Shown here: positions 6,457 to 14,127 of the stretch, in pieces | Layout of the letters: every line of letters starts with the position of its first letter | Position numbering within the stretch: position 1 is the first letter of the stretch | DNA from: Phenylobacterium parvum | Lineage (GTDB): Bacteria > Pseudomonadota > Alphaproteobacteria > Caulobacterales > Caulobacteraceae | Assembly: GCF_003150835.1 (NCBI RefSeq) | Contig: NZ_CP029479.1 | Coordinates: 62,001-126,000, forward strand | Length of the DNA stretch: 64,000 bases | Direction: 5' to 3' | Made by a program: the position numbers and the translations under genes | Notes under the pieces: model-generated | The model's input: only the letters and a program-made list of their open reading frames with translations | Databases searched by the model: none | What the model was told of the DNA's origin: nothing

Positions 6457-6505
6457 GTTTCGCCCGCCTCGCCCCTCCGGCGGGTGCGTGGTATGGCCTC
6501 CGGCC

Positions 6506-7663
6506 ATGAGCCAGCCGAACTTCGACTTCGCCCTCGGCGAGACCGCCGACGCCCTGAGGGCCTCGGTCGCCCGCTTCGCCGCCGAGCGCATCGCCCCGCG
6601 CGCCGCCGCCATTGACCGGGACAACGCCTTTCCCCGCGACCTCTGGCCGCAGATGGGCGCCCTGGGCCTCCTGGGGATCACGGTCGAGGCCGAGGACGGC
6701 GGGGCGGGCCTGGGCTATCTCGAGCACGTGGTGGCCATGGAGGAAATCTCCCGGGCCTCGGCCTCGGTAGGCCTGTCCTACGGCGCCCACTCCAACCTCT
6801 GCGTGAACCAGATCCGCCGCTGGGGAACCCCGGCCCAGAAGGCCCGCCATCTGCCCCGCCTGATCTCGGGCGAGCATGTCGGCGCCCTGGCCATGAGCGA
6901 GGCCGGTTCTGGCTCCGATGTCGTCTCCATGCGCCTGCGGGCCGAGAAACGCGGCGACCGCTACGTCCTCAACGGGACCAAGTTCTGGATCACCAACGGC
7001 CCCCACGCAGACGTCCTGGTGGTCTATGCCCGCACCGAGCCGGACGCCGGCCCCCGGGGCATCACCGCCTTCCTGGTGGAGCGCGGCATGGCCGGCTTCT
7101 CCACAAGCCCCAAGCTGGACAAGATGGGCATGCGCGGCTCCGACACGGCTGAACTGGTCTTCCAGGACTGCGAGGTGCCGGAAGAGAATGTCATGGGCCC
7201 CGTCAACGGCGGCGTCGGCGTCCTGATGAGCGGCCTGGACTACGAGCGGGCCGTTCTGGCGGCGGGACCCCTCGGCATCATGCAGGCCTGCCTGGACCTG
7301 GTCCTGCCCTATGTGCGGGAGCGGAAACAGTTCGGCCAGGCCATCGGCGCCTTCCAGCTCATGCAGGCCAAGGTGGCGGACATGTACGTGGCCCTGAACT
7401 CGGCCCGGGCCTATGTCTACGCCGTGGCGCGGGCCTGCGACGCGGGCCTGGCCACCCGCCACGACGCCGCCGGCGCCATCCTCCTGGCCTCGGAGAACGC
7501 CGTGAAGGTGGCGCTGGAGGCCATCCAGGCCCTGGGCGGCGCCGGCTACACCCGCGACTTCCCCGCCGAGCGCCTGATGCGCGACGCAAAGCTCTATGAC
7601 ATCGGCGCCGGCACCAACGAGATCCGCCGCTACCTGATCGGCCGCGAGCTGATCGGCGCCTAA
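6506..7663 (+). CDS. ivd: Isovaleryl-CoA dehydrogenase
   Basis: FAD-dependent acyl-CoA dehydrogenase converting isovaleryl-CoA to 3-methylcrotonyl-CoA in leucine breakdown. 385 residues. The catalytic base is E247 in [14 protein letters not shown], the position characteristic of isovaleryl-CoA dehydrogenases (ordinary short/medium-chain enzymes carry the Glu nearer the C-terminus). [10 protein letters not shown] (130-139) and the C-terminal [19 protein letters not shown] are family signatures. The start is the ATG at 6506; an in-frame GTG at 6488 adds six unlikely residues. The next step of the pathway is encoded by mccB/mccA beyond the patatin gene, which fits the assignment. Confidence 0.93.
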
Positions 7664-7680
7664 GTCCCGCCGGAACGGAT

Positions 7681-7736
7681 GAGGGGCCGCCCCGTCGCCG
7701 GAACGGCCCCTCCATTGTCGGACCGCCCTGCGGTCC
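7681..7736. terminator. Pair of hairpins between ivd and the small ORF
   Basis: GAGGGGCCG (7681-7689) pairs with CGGCCCCTC (7704-7712). GGACCGC (7720-7726) pairs with GCGGTCC (7730-7736) around a CCT loop. Both lie between the ivd stop and the converging small ORF and could serve either strand. There is no strong U-tract. Confidence 0.5.
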
Positions 7737-7749
7737 CGCAACCCGTCGC

Positions 7750-7818
7750 CTAGGCGCGCGCCTCTCCGACGGAGGTCCAGGTCACGGTTTCCGCATGCGG
7801 ATGAAGACAATGAGACAC
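7750..7818 (-). CDS. Candidate 22-residue small protein or leader peptide with an extended Shine-Dalgarno
   Basis: GTG start at 7816-7818, 22 codons, TAG stop at 7750-7752. The peptide starts SHCLHPHAE, rich in His/Cys, and continues ETVTWTSVGEARA. Directly upstream on the minus strand is GAAAGGAGGTGATCCA: GGAGG is 7 bases from the GTG. On the plus strand this run reads as the 3' end of alphaproteobacterial 16S rRNA (CTGGATCACCTCCTTTC), giving near-perfect anti-SD pairing. An imperfect inverted repeat (GGTTGGCC/GGCCAGCC, 7838-7858) precedes it and two hairpins follow. It lies 82 bp downstream of the patatin gene on the same strand. Function unknown; it could be a leader peptide with no coding gene directly behind it. 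Confidence 0.55.
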   Translation of the reverse strand: MSHCLHPHAETVTWTSVGEARA

Positions 7819-7900
7819 TGGATCACCTCCTTTCAATGGTTGGCCAAGGTGGCCAGCCTGCGCCTGCTTCGCCCGTCCTGACAAGTCGGGCCGCGTCACG

Positions 7901-9640
7901 TCAGGGGAATGCGGGGCGCGCCGGCGGGCGGTGGCGCAGGTCCTCCAGGGGGCCGGCGATCCGGTCCAGCGAGGCGAGGGCGGCCGTGTAGCCGGCGGCG
8001 ACGGCGGGGTCGTAGGCGCTCCAGTCGCGGATCTCCACCCCGGCCAGCTCGGGCAGGATCAGGACGTCGGCCCCCTCCCGTGCGGCGGCCAGGTCGCGGC
8101 CCGAGGAGACGGTGGCGGCGCGGATCAGCAGGGAGACGATGGGCGGGCCCTTGCGCCACTGGCCCGACAGGACCCAGCGCAGGAGGGATCGCGGTCGGAC
8201 GATGTCGGCGGCGGTGATGGACAGGCCCCGGCTGACGTCGACCCCGATGATGGGGCCGGACAGGCCGCCGCGCATGACGTCCACGGGCAGGTTCTTGAGG
8301 ACGGCGCCGTCCACCAGCACGTTCTGGCCCTGGAGGGCGGGCGGCAGGAGGCCGGGGAGGGAGATGGAGGCCCGCAGGGCGGCGCGGACGCTTCCCCGCC
8401 GATGCACCTGGTGGGCGCCCGTGGTGAGGTTGGAGGAGACGCAGAAGAAGGGGCGCCAGAGGTCGGAGAACTGGACGTCGCCAAAGTGCTCCTCGAGCCG
8501 CCGGGCGACCTTCTCGCCCCGGGTCATGGCCAGCATGGGGAAGGCGATGTCATCGAGGGGGCTGGAGGCGACGAAGGCCCGCCGTATGCGCTGGTCCATC
8601 TCGTCCAGGTCCCAACCCAGGGCGAGGCCTGCAGCGATCACCGCCCCCATGGAGGCGCCCCCCACATGGTCGATGGGCACGCCGCGCTCGGACAGGGCGC
8701 GGATGACGCCGATATGGGCGTAGGCCCGGGCGCCGCCGCCGGAGAGGACCAGGCCCACGGCCCGCCCGGTCAGCCTGCGGACCAGGCGCGCCAGGTCGCC
8801 GGGATCGCCCTGCCGAAGGTGTGTCAGGCCCACCGCCCCGGTCGCCGTCATCCAGGCCTCGCCACCGCGCGGGCGGCGGATGCCCGCCGGCTGCACCAGC
8901 ACAAGCTCTGCCCCCACGGCCAGGGCGGGCGGGGTGTGGGCCGCGGCGCCGGGCGGCGGCGGGAAGTCCCCCCGGCCCACCCGGAAGAGCCGGTCCACCT
9001 GGCGGGCGATCTTGCCGGCCCAGGCCGCCTCCCCGTGGCCGGCGACATAGAGGGCGTAGTCGACGGAGTGCTCAAGATTGGAGAACCAGGAGGTCTCGGC
9101 CTCCTGCGCCTCGGAGCCCGCGACGGCGGCCGTGAAGCCGGCGGCCCGGATGCCCTCGGCCAGGGACTCGACCAGGTCCCTCACGCCCTCGATGGGGCCC
9201 TGGGCGACGAAGCCGAAGACCGTGGGCTCCACCAGGGCGGCCGTGCGGCCGGCGTCCCGGGCCCGGCCCACCATCAGGCGGGCGAGGTCGGTCATGATGT
9301 CCGGGTCCGTCTCGCATGCGGCGAAGAAGACCTCGCGGTCCAGGGACAGGATCTCGGAGTCCCGCAGGGCGGTCAGGCGACCGGAATGAACGGCGCCCGT
9401 GATCAGGCTCATCTCTCCCGCGGGCTCGCCGGGGCGGACGACGCCCAGGAAGCGGGGCTCATCGCCCCCGTCGACCCGGAAGGCGCCCAGCCGCCCGGCC
9501 CTCAGCAGGTGAAGCTCATCGGCCGGCTCGCCGGGCCGGAACAGGTCCAGCCCTCCCGGCAGGCACCACCAGCGCGCCGACCCGGACTGGCGGGCGGTCT
9601 CGAAAAGCCGGGCGAGGGCGGTTTCGGTCGGGATTTGCAC
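7901..9640 (-). CDS. cNMP-binding domain / patatin-like phospholipase fusion
   Basis: 579 residues. An N-terminal cyclic-nucleotide-binding (cNMP) beta-roll domain (about 15-125) includes [12 protein letters not shown], the phosphate-cassette-like segment. A linker region of about 170 residues follows, then a patatin lipase domain (about 295-500). The patatin signatures are [11 protein letters not shown] (301-311, oxyanion hole), GASMG with nucleophile S330, and the dyad Asp D444 in VDGAVLKN. The layout resembles neuropathy-target-esterase/RssA-type lysophospholipases. Whether it binds a nucleotide is unknown. Divergent from mccB (100 bp between starts). Confidence 0.88.
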
Positions 9641-9652
9641 GCCCCATGATAA

Positions 9653-9666
9653 CCCTGCTTGCAGGG
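9653..9666. promoter_or_regulatory. Palindrome in the patatin-mccB divergent region
   Basis: CCCTGC TT GCAGGG: two perfect 6-bp arms around a 2-bp centre, 13 bp before the patatin start and 75 bp before mccB. It is a possible operator for the divergent pair. No known regulator site is matched with certainty. Confidence 0.3.
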
Positions 9667-9740
9667 CGGATGGAAACCCGCTCGGGGGCTGGGGTCCGCA
9701 CGGACTAGCCGCCGGCCCGGCCCCCGGCTATGCCTTGTCC

Positions 9741-11363
9741 ATGCCCGTCCTGAAGAGCGCCCTCGATCCGGCTTCGGCGGCCTTCCGCGCCAATGCGGAG
9801 GTCAACCGCGCCCTCGCCGCCCAGCTGGCCGGGCGCACGGCCCAGGCCGTCCTCGGCGGGCCCGAGGACAGCCGCCGCCGGCACGAGGCCCGGGGCAAGC
9901 TCCTGCCCCGGGACCGGGTGGAGGGCCTGCTGGACCCGGGCGCGCCCTTCCTCGAGATCGGCGCCCTTGCGGCCTTTGGCCTCTACGACGACGAGGCCCC
10001 GGCCTCGGGCCTGATCGCCGGCATCGGCCGGGTCAGCGGCCGGGAGGTGATGATCCTGGCCAACGACGCCACGGTGAAGGGCGGCGCCTACTTCCCCCTC
10101 ACCGTGAAGAAGCACCTGCGGGCCCAGGAGATCGCCGAGCAGAACGCCCTGCCCTGCGTCTACCTGGTGGACTCCGGCGGGGCCAACCTGCCCCACCAGG
10201 CGGAGGTCTTCCCCGACCGCGACCACTTCGGCCGCATCTTCTTCAACCAGGCCCGGATGAGCGCCCGGGGGATCGCCCAGATCGCCTGCGTCATGGGCTC
10301 GTGCACGGCGGGGGGCGCCTATGTCCCGGCCATGTCCGATGAGACCGTGATCGTGCGGGGGACCGGGGCGGAGAGCCAGGGCACCATCTTCCTGGGCGGC
10401 CCGCCCCTGGTGAAGGCCGCCACGGGCGAGGTCATCTCGGCCACCGACCTCGGCGGGGCCGACGTCCACGGACGCCGCTCGGGCGTGGTGGACCACGTGG
10501 CCGAGGACGACCGGCACGCCCTGGCCATCGTCCGGCGGATCGTCGCCGGCCTCAACACACGCCGCCCGGAGGGACCGGTCCTGGCCGAGCCCCGCCCGCC
10601 CCTGTTCGATCCCGCCGAGCTCTACGGGGTCATCCCCCAGGACGTCCGGGCGCCCTACGACGTGCGCGAGGTCATCGCCCGGATCGTCGACGGCTCGGCC
10701 TTCGATGAGTTCAAGGCCCTCTACGGCCAGACCCTGGTCTGCGGCTTCGCCCGGATCTGGGGCTATCCGGTGGCCATCCTGGCCAACAACGGCATCCTGT
10801 TCTCGGAGAGCGCCCTCAAGGGGGCCCACTTCATCGAGCTGGCCTGCCAGAGGGGCATCCCCCTCCTTTTCCTGCAGAACATCTCCGGCTTCATGGTCGG
10901 CGGACGCTACGAGGCCGGCGGCATAGCCCGGGACGGCGCCAAGCTGGTCACCGCCGTGGCCTGCGCCGAGGTGCCCAAGCTGACCGTGCTGATCGGCGGC
11001 TCCTTCGGGGCCGGCAACTACGGCATGTGCGGCCGGGCCTATTCGCCGCGCTTCCTCTGGAGCTGGCCCAACGCCCGCATCTCGGTGATGGGCGGCGAGC
11101 AGGCCGCCAGCGTCCTGGCGACCATCCGCCGCGACGGGATCGAGGCTCGGGGCGGCCAGTGGCCCGCCGAGGAGGAAGAGGCCTTCAAGGCGCCCGTGCG
11201 CGAGCGCTACGAGGCCGAGGGCGATCCCTACTTCGCCACCGCCCGCCTGTGGGACGACGGGATCATCGACCCCGCCCAGACCCGCGATGTCCTGGGCCTG
11301 TCCCTGTCCGCCGCCCTGAACGCCCCGATCGCGCCAACGCGCTTCGGCGTCTTCCGAATGTGA
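9741..11363 (+). CDS. mccB: 3-methylcrotonyl-CoA carboxylase, carboxyltransferase (beta) subunit
   Basis: Transfers CO2 from biotin to 3-methylcrotonyl-CoA, giving 3-methylglutaconyl-CoA. 540 residues, the standard length. The two crotonase-fold halves of carboxyltransferases are visible. [17 protein letters not shown] and [13 protein letters not shown] are in the N-half; [12 protein letters not shown] and [16 protein letters not shown], with [15 protein letters not shown], are in the C-half. These match MCC-beta rather than propionyl-CoA carboxylase. ATG at 9741 is chosen; an in-frame TTG at 9735 adds two residues. It begins a three-gene run with the hydratase and mccA. Confidence 0.93.
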
Positions 11364-11389
11364 ACGATCCCCGAAACCGGAGCCCTGAC

Positions 11390-12235
11390 ATGTCCAACCC
11401 GATCGCCGATCCCCTGGTCGAGGGCGTCGACAGCGACGCCGCCTCGGACCTGGTGCGCCTGGACACCACCCAGGAAGGGGTGGCGGTGGTCACCCTCAAC
11501 CGGCCGGACGCGCGCAACAGCTTCAACGCCGAACTGATCGGCGCCCTGCACGAGACCTTCGAGACCCTCCAGGCCGCCGAGGGCGTGCGGGTGGTGTTCC
11601 TGCGCGGCGCCGGCAAGGTCTTCTCCGCCGGGGCCGACCTGAACTGGATGCGCGACGCCGCGCACTGGACCGAAGCAGAGAACCGCGACGACGCCATGGG
11701 CCTGGCGCGCATGCTCAAGGCCCTCTGGGATATCCCGGCCCTGACCGTGGCCCTGGTGCAGGGCGGCGCCTGGGGCGGGGGCTGCGGCCTCGCCGCCGCC
11801 TGCGACATCGCCGTGGCCGAGCGGGGCGCGAAGTTCGGCTTCTCCGAGGCCCGGCTGGGCCTGATCGCCGCCACCATCAGCCCCTACATCGTGGCCGCCA
11901 TTGGCCCGAGGGCCTCCCGCGGCCTGTTCGCCTCGGCCCGCACCTTCGACGCCGACGAGGCCCTGCGCATCGGGCTGGTGAGCGAACTGGTCGATGACGC
12001 CGCCGCCCTGGCGACCGCCGCCGACCGCATCGCCGGCGAGGCCATGGCCTGCGCCCCCGGCGCCATCGCGGCCTCCAAGGCCCTGGTCGACGCCGTCGCC
12101 CATCGCGAGATCGGCCCCGCCGTCATGGAGGACACCGCCCGCCGGATCGCCCAGGCCCGGGTCAGCGCCGAGGGCCGCGAGGGCGTCGCCGCCTTCCTTG
12201 CCCGCAGGTCGCCCTCCTGGGCAGGACAGGGCTGA
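11390..12235 (+). CDS. liuC: Enoyl-CoA hydratase family, probable 3-methylglutaconyl-CoA hydratase
   Basis: 281-residue crotonase-fold enzyme that should hydrate 3-methylglutaconyl-CoA to HMG-CoA. Family signs are NRPDARNSFNAEL near the N-terminus, the CoA-binding oxyanion segment FSAGADLNWM, and QGGAWGGGCGLAAACDIAVAE. The specificity is assigned from its place between mccB and mccA, which is where this gene sits in leucine/isovalerate (liu) operons; sequence alone supports only the family. ATG at 11390 is the start, 26 bp after mccB. The segment before VRLDTTQ is a 20-residue N-terminal extension. Ends 8 bp before mccA. Confidence 0.85.
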   Translation: MSNPIADPLVEGVDSDAASDLVRLDTTQEGVAVVTLNRPDARNSFNAELIGALHETFETLQAAEGVRVVFLRGAGKVFSAGADLNWMRDAAHWTEAENRDDAMGLARMLKALWDIPALTVALVQGGAWGGGCGLAAACDIAVAERGAKFGFSEARLGLIAATISPYIVAAIGPRASRGLFASARTFDADEALRIGLVSELVDDAAALATAADRIAGEAMACAPGAIAASKALVDAVAHREIGPAVMEDTARRIAQARVSAEGREGVAAFLARRSPSWAGQG

Positions 12236-12243
12236 ACCTCTCC

Positions 12244-14127
12244 GTGTTCCGCTCCGTCCTTGTCGCCAACCGGGGCGAGATCGCCCGCCGGATCTTCCGA
12301 ACCGCCCGCCGCCTGGGGGTGGAGACGATCGCGGTCGCCTCGGACGCCGACCTCGACGCCGCCCACGTGCGCGAGGCCGACCGGGCGGTGCGCATCGGCC
12401 CGGCGCCGGCGGCGGAGAGCTACCTGTCCATTCCCGACCTGGTGGCCGCGGCCCTGGAAAGCGGCGCAGAGGCGGTGCACCCGGGCTATGGCTTCCTGTC
12501 CGAGAACGCCGCCTTCGCCGAGGCGGTGCAGGCGGCGGGCCTCATCTGGATCGGGCCCTCGCCCGAGGCCATCCGCGCCATGGGCCTGAAGGATTCCGCC
12601 CGCGAGCGGATGATCGCCGCAGGCGTGCCGGTCACGCCGGGCTGGCAGGGCGATGACGGGCAGGAGGGCACACTGCTCGCCGCCGCCCGCGACCTGGGAT
12701 GGCCGGTCCTGATCAAGGCGGCGGCCGGAGGCGGCGGGCGCGGCATCCGGCGGGTGGACGCCGCCGCTGACTTCGCAGCCGCCCTGGCGGCCTGCCGGCG
12801 GGAGGCCCTGGCCGCCTTTGGCGACGACCGGGTCCTGCTGGAGCAGTGCATCGAGGCGCCCCGGCATATCGAGGTCCAGGTCTTCGGCGACGCCCATGGC
12901 GGCCTTGTCCACCTGTTCGAGCGCGACTGCACCCTGCAGCGCCGCCGCCAGAAGGTGATCGAGGAGGCCCCCGCTCCCGGCATGACGCCCGAGGTCCGCG
13001 ATGCGGTCTGCGCCGCCGCCCTCGCCGCCGCCCGGGCCGTGGACTATGTCGGGGCCGGCACGGTGGAGTTCATCGCCGACGCCCGCGAGGGCCTGCGGGC
13101 CGACCGCATCTGGTTCATGGAGATGAACACCCGGCTGCAGGTCGAGCATCCCGTCACCGAGGCCGTCACCGGGGTGGACCTGGTGGAGTGGCAGTTCCAC
13201 GTCGCCGCCGGCGAGCCCCTGCCCCTGGCCCAGGACCAGATCACCCTGAAGGGCTGGGCGGTCGAGGCCCGGCTCTGCGCCGAGGTCCCCGAGCGGGGCT
13301 TCATCCCCTCCGTCGGCCCCCTGGAGCACCTGCGCCTGCCCGAGGGGGTGAGGGTGGATTCCGGCGTCGAGGCCGGCGACGAGGTGGGCCCGCACTATGA
13401 TTCCCTGATCGCCAAGCTCATCGCCTGGGCGCCGACCCGGGAGGGCGCCACCGAGCACCTCGCCGAGGCCTGCGCCGGTGTCGAGACCTGGCCCCTGAAG
13501 ACCAACGCCGCCTTCCTGGCCCGGTGCCTGGACGATCCCGACTTCCTGGCCGGGCGGATGGACACCGGCTTCATCGACGCCCGCCTCGACCGGCTGGCGG
13601 CCCCGGCCCGGCCGTCGGCCGGTCTCCTGCGCAATGCCGCCGCGGCCCTGGCCGCCCTGTCCGCCGGGGAGGCCAGCGCCCCCTCCCGCGCCCTTTCCGG
13701 CTTTCGCCTGAACGCCCCGCCGCGGGACCAGGTGCGGGTCTGGTGCGACGGCGTCGAAGTCGTGGCCGACCTGCAGGAGGGCGAGGATGAAGAGGCCGAC
13801 CTGCTGGACCTGGGCGAGGCCCTGGTCCTGTTCGAGGGCGGCTCGGCCTTCTGCGTCTCGGCTGGTCCCCCCGCCCCTGAAGGCGGCGCGGCGACGACGG
13901 GCGACGGCGCGGTCAGCGCGCCCCTGCCGGGCCGGATCGTCGCGGTGGCCGTCGCCGAGGGCGACCGGGTGCGCCGGGGCGACGTCCTCCTGGTGGTCGA
14001 GGCCATGAAGATGGAGCACAGCCTGACGGCGCCCTTCGACGGGGTGGTCGACGGCCTGTCGGCGGCGGTCGGCGACCAGGTCCGTGAGGGCGAGCCCCTG
14101 GCGCGGGTGCGGAGCGAGGCGCCGTGA
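12244..14127 (+). CDS. mccA: 3-methylcrotonyl-CoA carboxylase, biotin-containing (alpha) subunit
   Basis: 627 residues. The biotin carboxylase domain (about 1-445) starts SVLVANRGEIARRI. It has an ATP-grasp loop AAGGGGRGIRRV and EMNTRLQVEHPVTE, the biotin/bicarbonate site. A linker follows, then a C-terminal biotinyl domain with EAMKMEHSL, where K589 is the biotinylation site. It uses ATP and bicarbonate to carboxylate biotin for MccB. The GTG start at 12244 is the only codon in frame that gives the conserved N-terminus. The stop overlaps the GTG of the DUF1489 gene by 4 bp. Confidence 0.94.
   Translation: MFRSVLVANRGEIARRIFRTARRLGVETIAVASDADLDAAHVREADRAVRIGPAPAAESYLSIPDLVAAALESGAEAVHPGYGFLSENAAFAEAVQAAGLIWIGPSPEAIRAMGLKDSARERMIAAGVPVTPGWQGDDGQEGTLLAAARDLGWPVLIKAAAGGGGRGIRRVDAAADFAAALAACRREALAAFGDDRVLLEQCIEAPRHIEVQVFGDAHGGLVHLFERDCTLQRRRQKVIEEAPAPGMTPEVRDAVCAAALAAARAVDYVGAGTVEFIADAREGLRADRIWFMEMNTRLQVEHPVTEAVTGVDLVEWQFHVAAGEPLPLAQDQITLKGWAVEARLCAEVPERGFIPSVGPLEHLRLPEGVRVDSGVEAGDEVGPHYDSLIAKLIAWAPTREGATEHLAEACAGVETWPLKTNAAFLARCLDDPDFLAGRMDTGFIDARLDRLAAPARPSAGLLRNAAAALAALSAGEASAPSRALSGFRLNAPPRDQVRVWCDGVEVVADLQEGEDEEADLLDLGEALVLFEGGSAFCVSAGPPAPEGGAATTGDGAVSAPLPGRIVAVAVAEGDRVRRGDVLLVVEAMKMEHSLTAPFDGVVDGLSAAVGDQVREGEPLARVRSEAP

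Follow-up and report, generated by a model that had tools for sequence, protein, structure and literature searches.

A Caulobacter sRNA family with a whole-tail Shine-Dalgarno and a conserved short frame as a candidate mini-mRNA of the Alphaproteobacteria

Described relatives of the locus

The closest described relative of the locus analysed here is the RNA family RF01867 (CC2171), recorded by Rfam as an sRNA of Caulobacter. One of its matches, in Mesorhizobium huakuii, had already been listed as MH_s33 (PMC5596092), and Rfam 15 counts the family among those with an improved structure, with one covarying pair (PMC11701678). In C. crescentus about 75% of the genes lack a Shine-Dalgarno (SD) sequence and about a quarter use one (PMC4117421), so that an SD matching the whole 16S tail stands out in this setting. 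The same article (Schrader 2014) reports that non-coding RNA regions of this bacterium are mostly untranslated and that two RNAs formerly taken as non-coding are translated; CC2171 may be one of these two, and its translation would then possibly be on record already.

Other systems resemble the RNA in single traits. The very strong SDs studied with rpsU of F. johnsoniae yield initiation complexes of unusual stability and favour a subset of the ribosomes (PMC9976891). The RNA described below shares with rpsU of this and other Bacteroidota an exceptionally strong SD and, as the likely regulated quantity, the accessibility of the 16S tail, and its predicted pairing of -28.0 kcal/mol clears the threshold of -13 kcal/mol for the rpsU type (PMC9976891). 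In contrast, the ORF of rpsU encodes bS21 itself, in an autoregulatory arrangement, whereas here we find a short and variable frame of 22 codons, with no ribosomal protein or other family matching it in Pfam or NCBIfam, carried by a separate structured transcript whose SD spans the entire tail. In S. aureus, ribosomes accommodate SD extensions proximal to the start codon, and the pairing reaches toward the start as it would have to do here (PMC13009471), although in that bacterium this is a genome-wide habit and the full-tail SD occurs once in the genome of P. parvum. The rnTrpL/peTrpL RNA of Sinorhizobium is likewise a small alphaproteobacterial RNA with a tiny ORF (PMC7298713, PMC10117765), but that RNA has no leader and goes back to the trp attenuator, whereas RF01867-type RNAs have a leader and an extreme SD and are independent genes with no conserved downstream operon. 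Finally, the CrfA sponge and the aR8 sRNAs SisA-D are also alphaproteobacterial RNAs that use SD or anti-SD-like sequences; in their case the partner is another RNA, and the accessible part of that work makes no mention of an ORF (PMC12559287).

Against this background, RF01867 itself was already known, and what appears to be new here is its class-wide range, the conservation of its frame and the combination of a whole-tail SD with a long-range helix that we call the clamp.

A full-length RF01867 member in Phenylobacterium parvum

The window, a stretch of 64,000 nt of the P. parvum chromosome, contains on the minus strand a full-length match to the RF01867 model (cmscan; positions 7842-7683, model positions 1-159, 102.6 bits, E 2.5e-20, above the gathering score of 75 bits). 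The terminator stem of the predicted minimum free energy (MFE) fold reaches 7681, beyond the end of the match, so the whole unit extends over 7681..7842 and comprises a 5′ leader, the SD, an ORF, the clamp and the terminator. The initial annotation had flagged a 22-codon ORF behind an SD mirroring the 16S 3′ end, with a GTG at good spacing and a TAG stop, and all these elements are exactly there: the extended SD GAAAGGAGGTGATCCAG at 7834-7818, with GAAAGGAGGTGATCCA exact at 7834-7819, and the ORF VSHCLHPHAETVTWTSVGEARA at 7818-7750, with its GTG at 7818-7816 and its TAG at 7752-7750. As the Rfam match covers this ORF, the latter makes up the 5′ portion of an RNA already catalogued and the locus is a known sRNA, with which it shares the 5′ block, the clamp and the terminator.

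The SD is complementary to the entire single-stranded 3′ tail of the 16S rRNA. This tail (...GGCTGGATCACCTCCTTTCT) was taken from rRNA operons in plasmid and chromid records of other Alphaproteobacteria and shows 100% identity in Azospirillum, Methylobacterium, Novosphingobium, Sinorhizobium, Paracoccus and others; a search of the available P. parvum sequence found no 16S gene. The pairing predicted between the 15-mer GAAAGGAGGTGATCC and the tail amounts to -28.0 kcal/mol, compared with -9.2 kcal/mol for AGGAGG. The unpaired tail is delimited by helix boundaries in the 16S rRNA, and the conserved pairing spans it and ends near those boundaries. Such a block is hardly repeated: the only other site in the window with up to 3 mismatches has 3, the 15-mer has one exact copy in the 2.83-Mb genome, and its three sites with 1 mismatch have no start codon at that spacing. 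Among 129 homologues found with the covariance model, 128 carry 0-3 changes in the 15-mer, and its first 11 nt are nearly invariant. In a search of paper texts for GGAGGUGAUCC, the sole match was a study of 16S processing by YbeY in Sinorhizobium.

The MFE fold of the RNA (-84.6 kcal/mol, z -3.16) contains both the long-range helix and the terminal hairpin of the RF01867 model. In the clamp, CATTGTC within codons 3-5 (7806..7812, minus) pairs with GACAATG (7713..7719, minus), which abuts a strong intrinsic-terminator hairpin, GAGGGGCCG..CGGCCCCTC (7681..7712, minus). The leader, single-stranded and starting with CAAC, most of the SD and the start codon are unpaired. The flanking elements described at first thus stand in part: the two hairpins after the ORF correspond, in the predicted fold, to the clamp and the terminator, and the inverted repeat said to precede it lies in the upstream or leader region. 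The T tract after the terminator is poor in P. parvum, and a CTTTTT-like tract follows it in many homologues.

Comparison of relatives supports both stems. On a sequence-only alignment of 60 Caulobacteraceae (A2), 92.6% of the cells of the clamp helix are paired and 25 show double changes, with a covariation of 0.237 that none of 500 shuffles reached and that slid controls (≤0.062) did not approach; the terminator stem covaries in this family as well. When codon 4 encodes Ser, the resulting CATAGT pairs with ACTATG, and the Arg or Gln versions (CATCGT, CACCG, CACCAAA) also go with matching partners. Since codon 4 drifts between Cys, Ser, Arg and Gln along with its pairing partner, the His/Cys-rich SHCLHPH start, originally read as a feature of the peptide, results from the RNA helix and not from the peptide. 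Across the class the arms have unrelated sequences and still pair, with -18.2 kcal/mol for own partners versus -13.4 for swapped ones, and the own partner beats the median swap in 87% of the cases.

For transcription, a promoter-like pair TTTGC-N17-CATATT is conserved upstream of most Caulobacteraceae homologues (L261-L320), 20-55 nt before the SD. This pair is absent at the P. parvum locus, where a weak candidate -35 element, TTGTCA (7879..7884, minus), is followed by no clear -10; we infer this promoter from the letters, since a sigma-70 consensus scan of the window found none at the RNA locus.

Range of the family across the class

RF01867 matches occur in 164 of 199 Caulobacteraceae genomes and, at E ≤ 0.01, in 96 of 385 alphaproteobacterial genomes, mostly under the Rfam gathering score. 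Every one of 20 weak matches examined has an exact or near-exact SD block followed by ATG, GTG or TTG and a short ORF, so that these 20 are real relatives. With the stringent search pattern defined as AAAGGAGGTGATC-NN-start, the exact pattern AAAGGAGGTGATCNNDTG gave 81 sites in 80 of the 385 genomes and none in the reversed-pattern control, always one site per genome save for a sphingomonad with two (G210). In a second, phylum-wide draw, by hand count, the pattern was present in 49 of 86 Alphaproteobacteria (a few sites, L332 and L350 among them, have the look of chance matches) versus 10 of 213 other Pseudomonadota. The hosts include Sphingomonas, Novosphingobium, Bosea, Methylobacterium, Microvirga, Azospirillum, relatives of Roseomonas and Brevundimonas, and plasmid-borne copies with no annotated feature in the gene table exist in Skermanella, Azospirillum and Methylobacterium. 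Diverged homologues scanned against Rfam matched no further families besides neighbouring tRNAs. Altogether, these comparisons show that an RNA filed under Caulobacter extends across the whole class Alphaproteobacteria, usually once per genome and far more widely than Rfam records, a range that appears to be new.

Some lineages have versions of their own. Sphingomonads (L051-L169) show two, with an MSHC or an MSHGSA start, whereas one family with genomes of 4.7-8.8 Mb (L345-L349) has a 14-codon version, VSYTKRCHLAGIAR, and a strongly conserved downstream block, TGGCATCGGGGCGCTCTCAGCCCTGGACCAGCGAGCA; a tRNA gene lies near the RNA in both loci of this family that were scanned.

A possible mini-mRNA and its alternatives

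Sequence comparison shows a unit of which each part is conserved, namely leader, full-tail SD, spaced start codon, short frame, clamp and terminator, and this unit is found in differing genomic contexts, which backs the early proposal of a self-contained transcript with an extreme SD. As far as the sequences tell, this gene of ~160 nt would be a minimal mRNA as well as a structured RNA. The class-wide range, the whole-tail SD and the constant tiny frame give it the appearance of a mini-mRNA that captures ribosomes, more than of a plain non-coding RNA. We give a probability of about 0.5 to this reading, in which the RNA is a self-contained mini-mRNA that captures 30S subunits and in which translation of the ORF matters for the RNA itself and not for the peptide, a function that we infer. 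Subunits would be captured through the 16S tail with exceptional affinity, and the initiating ribosome, sitting on codons 2-5, would thereby open the clamp. Without a ribosome the clamp would close and the RNA fold as a rod, with SD and start codon single-stranded, so that two states could exist, one ribosome-bound and open and the other free, clamped and stable. If the clamp depends on the ribosome in this way, translation and prompt termination would be selected for the state of the RNA and not for a peptide, and the RNA might serve as a reporter or a competitor of free, tail-competent 30S subunits. Given that the SD lies outside the clamp, the proposed switch may be weak.

A bolder version, which we consider rather improbable, would make this single-copy RNA a class-wide ribosome regulator that captures or gauges, through its whole-tail SD, those free 30S subunits whose 16S tail is accessible. 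Its switch would consist of a disposable ORF and a clamp that the ribosome opens, and it would relate to the 30S subunit roughly as 6S RNA does to RNA polymerase. Alphaproteobacteria of the C. crescentus type mostly initiate without an SD and yet keep one RNA with a nearly unchanged whole-tail SD. If its ORF is translated as the conservation implies, a family listed as non-coding would be a mini-mRNA with selected translation and a largely unselected peptide, and the sensing of free 30S subunits or of tail accessibility would become open to clean genetic study.

How far the frame itself is conserved bears on a conventional reading, that of the Rfam record, in which the SD-like block is the pairing seed of a non-coding sRNA, aimed at the 16S tail or at sRNAs that contain CCUCC, for example the aR8/SisA-D family, with the ORF as a by-product. 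A compact RNA with a z of -3.16 fits this description, a structural RNA could put an SD block to other use, and the aR8 sRNAs, which carry UUUCCUCCCU, are also widespread in the class (PMC12559287). Nevertheless, in 186 of 186 non-redundant loci, selected by the SD-plus-start pattern or the covariance model and not by their ORF, frame 0 stays open over 14 codons or more and ends ahead of a terminator that was located independently of the ORF, while frames +1 and +2 behave so in 28% and 43% of the loci. The start keeps a fixed spacing (GTG in 126, ATG in 53 and TTG in 3 of 182 loci), and the Caulobacteraceae frames end in all three stops (TGA 34, TAA 29, TAG 23), at corresponding places. The ORF usually has 18-26 codons across the class; 86 distinct Caulobacteraceae ORFs have 17-24, and 98.8% of them fall within 18-24, as against 10% expected from shuffles. 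Moreover, one homologue (L306, read against L002) carries an extra base behind the start codon and lacks one ~10 codons later, a compensated +1/-1 frameshift that restores the frame and the C-terminal half typical of its family. As for the partners, the aR8 core would pair with only -8.7 kcal/mol versus -28.0 for the 16S tail, and a sponge for aR8 sRNAs was rejected owing to this weak pairing. A purely non-coding sRNA is therefore unlikely in our opinion, and the retention of the frame in all 186 loci argues, at the level of sequence comparison, that RF01867 does not fit its non-coding label; it differs from the Rfam description in its conserved ORF as well as in its class-wide homologues.

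A conserved frame could also mean that the 22-residue peptide is the product, a functional microprotein whose expression the long SD merely secures. In this line, codons 5-17 have an in-frame pN/pS slightly below 1, some residues recur within families, such as VTW..EV.A in Caulobacteraceae and MSHGSA in sphingomonads, and in Azospirillum and related loci the ORF is extended to a signal-peptide-like protein of 56-59 aa. Nonetheless, the peptides of different orders are unrelated while SD and clamp are retained, codon 4 follows the RNA helix, and similar pN/pS values are obtained in another frame (0.63-0.95 by region in frame, 0.61-2.2 in the other frames and 0.61-0.82 in frame +2). In two genera that we looked at closely (L335-L342 and L345-L349), nucleotides are conserved rather than synonymous sites. 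We consequently regard a microprotein as improbable. The small ORF proposed at the outset holds for its start, frame and stop, which are conserved far beyond chance, and fails for its 22 amino acids, which are not conserved class-wide. A known protein family for the peptide was also sought, and discarded, as neither Pfam nor NCBIfam gave a match. As a separate observation, the ORF of Azospirillum-like and some other loci (L105, L139, L154, L219, L237, L256) extends to ~55-59 codons encoding a secreted-looking small protein with a signal-peptide-like sequence, which gives the impression of a frame co-opted as a real gene.

A short ORF, a long-range pairing and a terminator are also the ingredients of a leader-peptide attenuator acting on a downstream gene, and a same-strand gene does follow in some genomes, for example a branched-chain aminotransferase in part of the Sphingomonadales. 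In the window, however, the gap of 82 bp to the patatin-like ORF (7901-9640, minus), upstream of the RNA on the same strand, is confirmed, as is the claim that no same-strand coding gene follows: past the terminator comes an acyl-CoA dehydrogenase gene on the plus strand, ending at 7663 and convergent with the RNA. This convergent arrangement is common among the Caulobacteraceae homologues and frequent overall. Genomic contexts and downstream genes vary between orders, and the ORFs show no conserved repetition of the codons of a single amino acid. With a regulated same-strand gene absent in the window and a context that is not conserved, attenuation was rejected as unsupported and seems very unlikely.

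Last, a functionless fragment of a 16S gene, derived or arisen by chance, has practically no probability left, for although the plus strand reads like a 16S 3′ end, the identity extends for 17 nt on one side and no further than the tail end on the other, the Rfam scan of the window has no SSU rRNA match, and the class-wide counts of a single-copy pattern with a reversed control of zero, the covariation of the clamp and the conservation of the frame refute it.

The plus-strand genes facing the RNA seem to form a cluster in their own right: judging the ORF translations by eye, positions 6488-14127 (plus) likely encode leucine/isovalerate degradation, with the acyl-CoA dehydrogenase accompanied by a carboxyltransferase, an enoyl-CoA hydratase and a biotin carboxylase, all convergent with the RNA.
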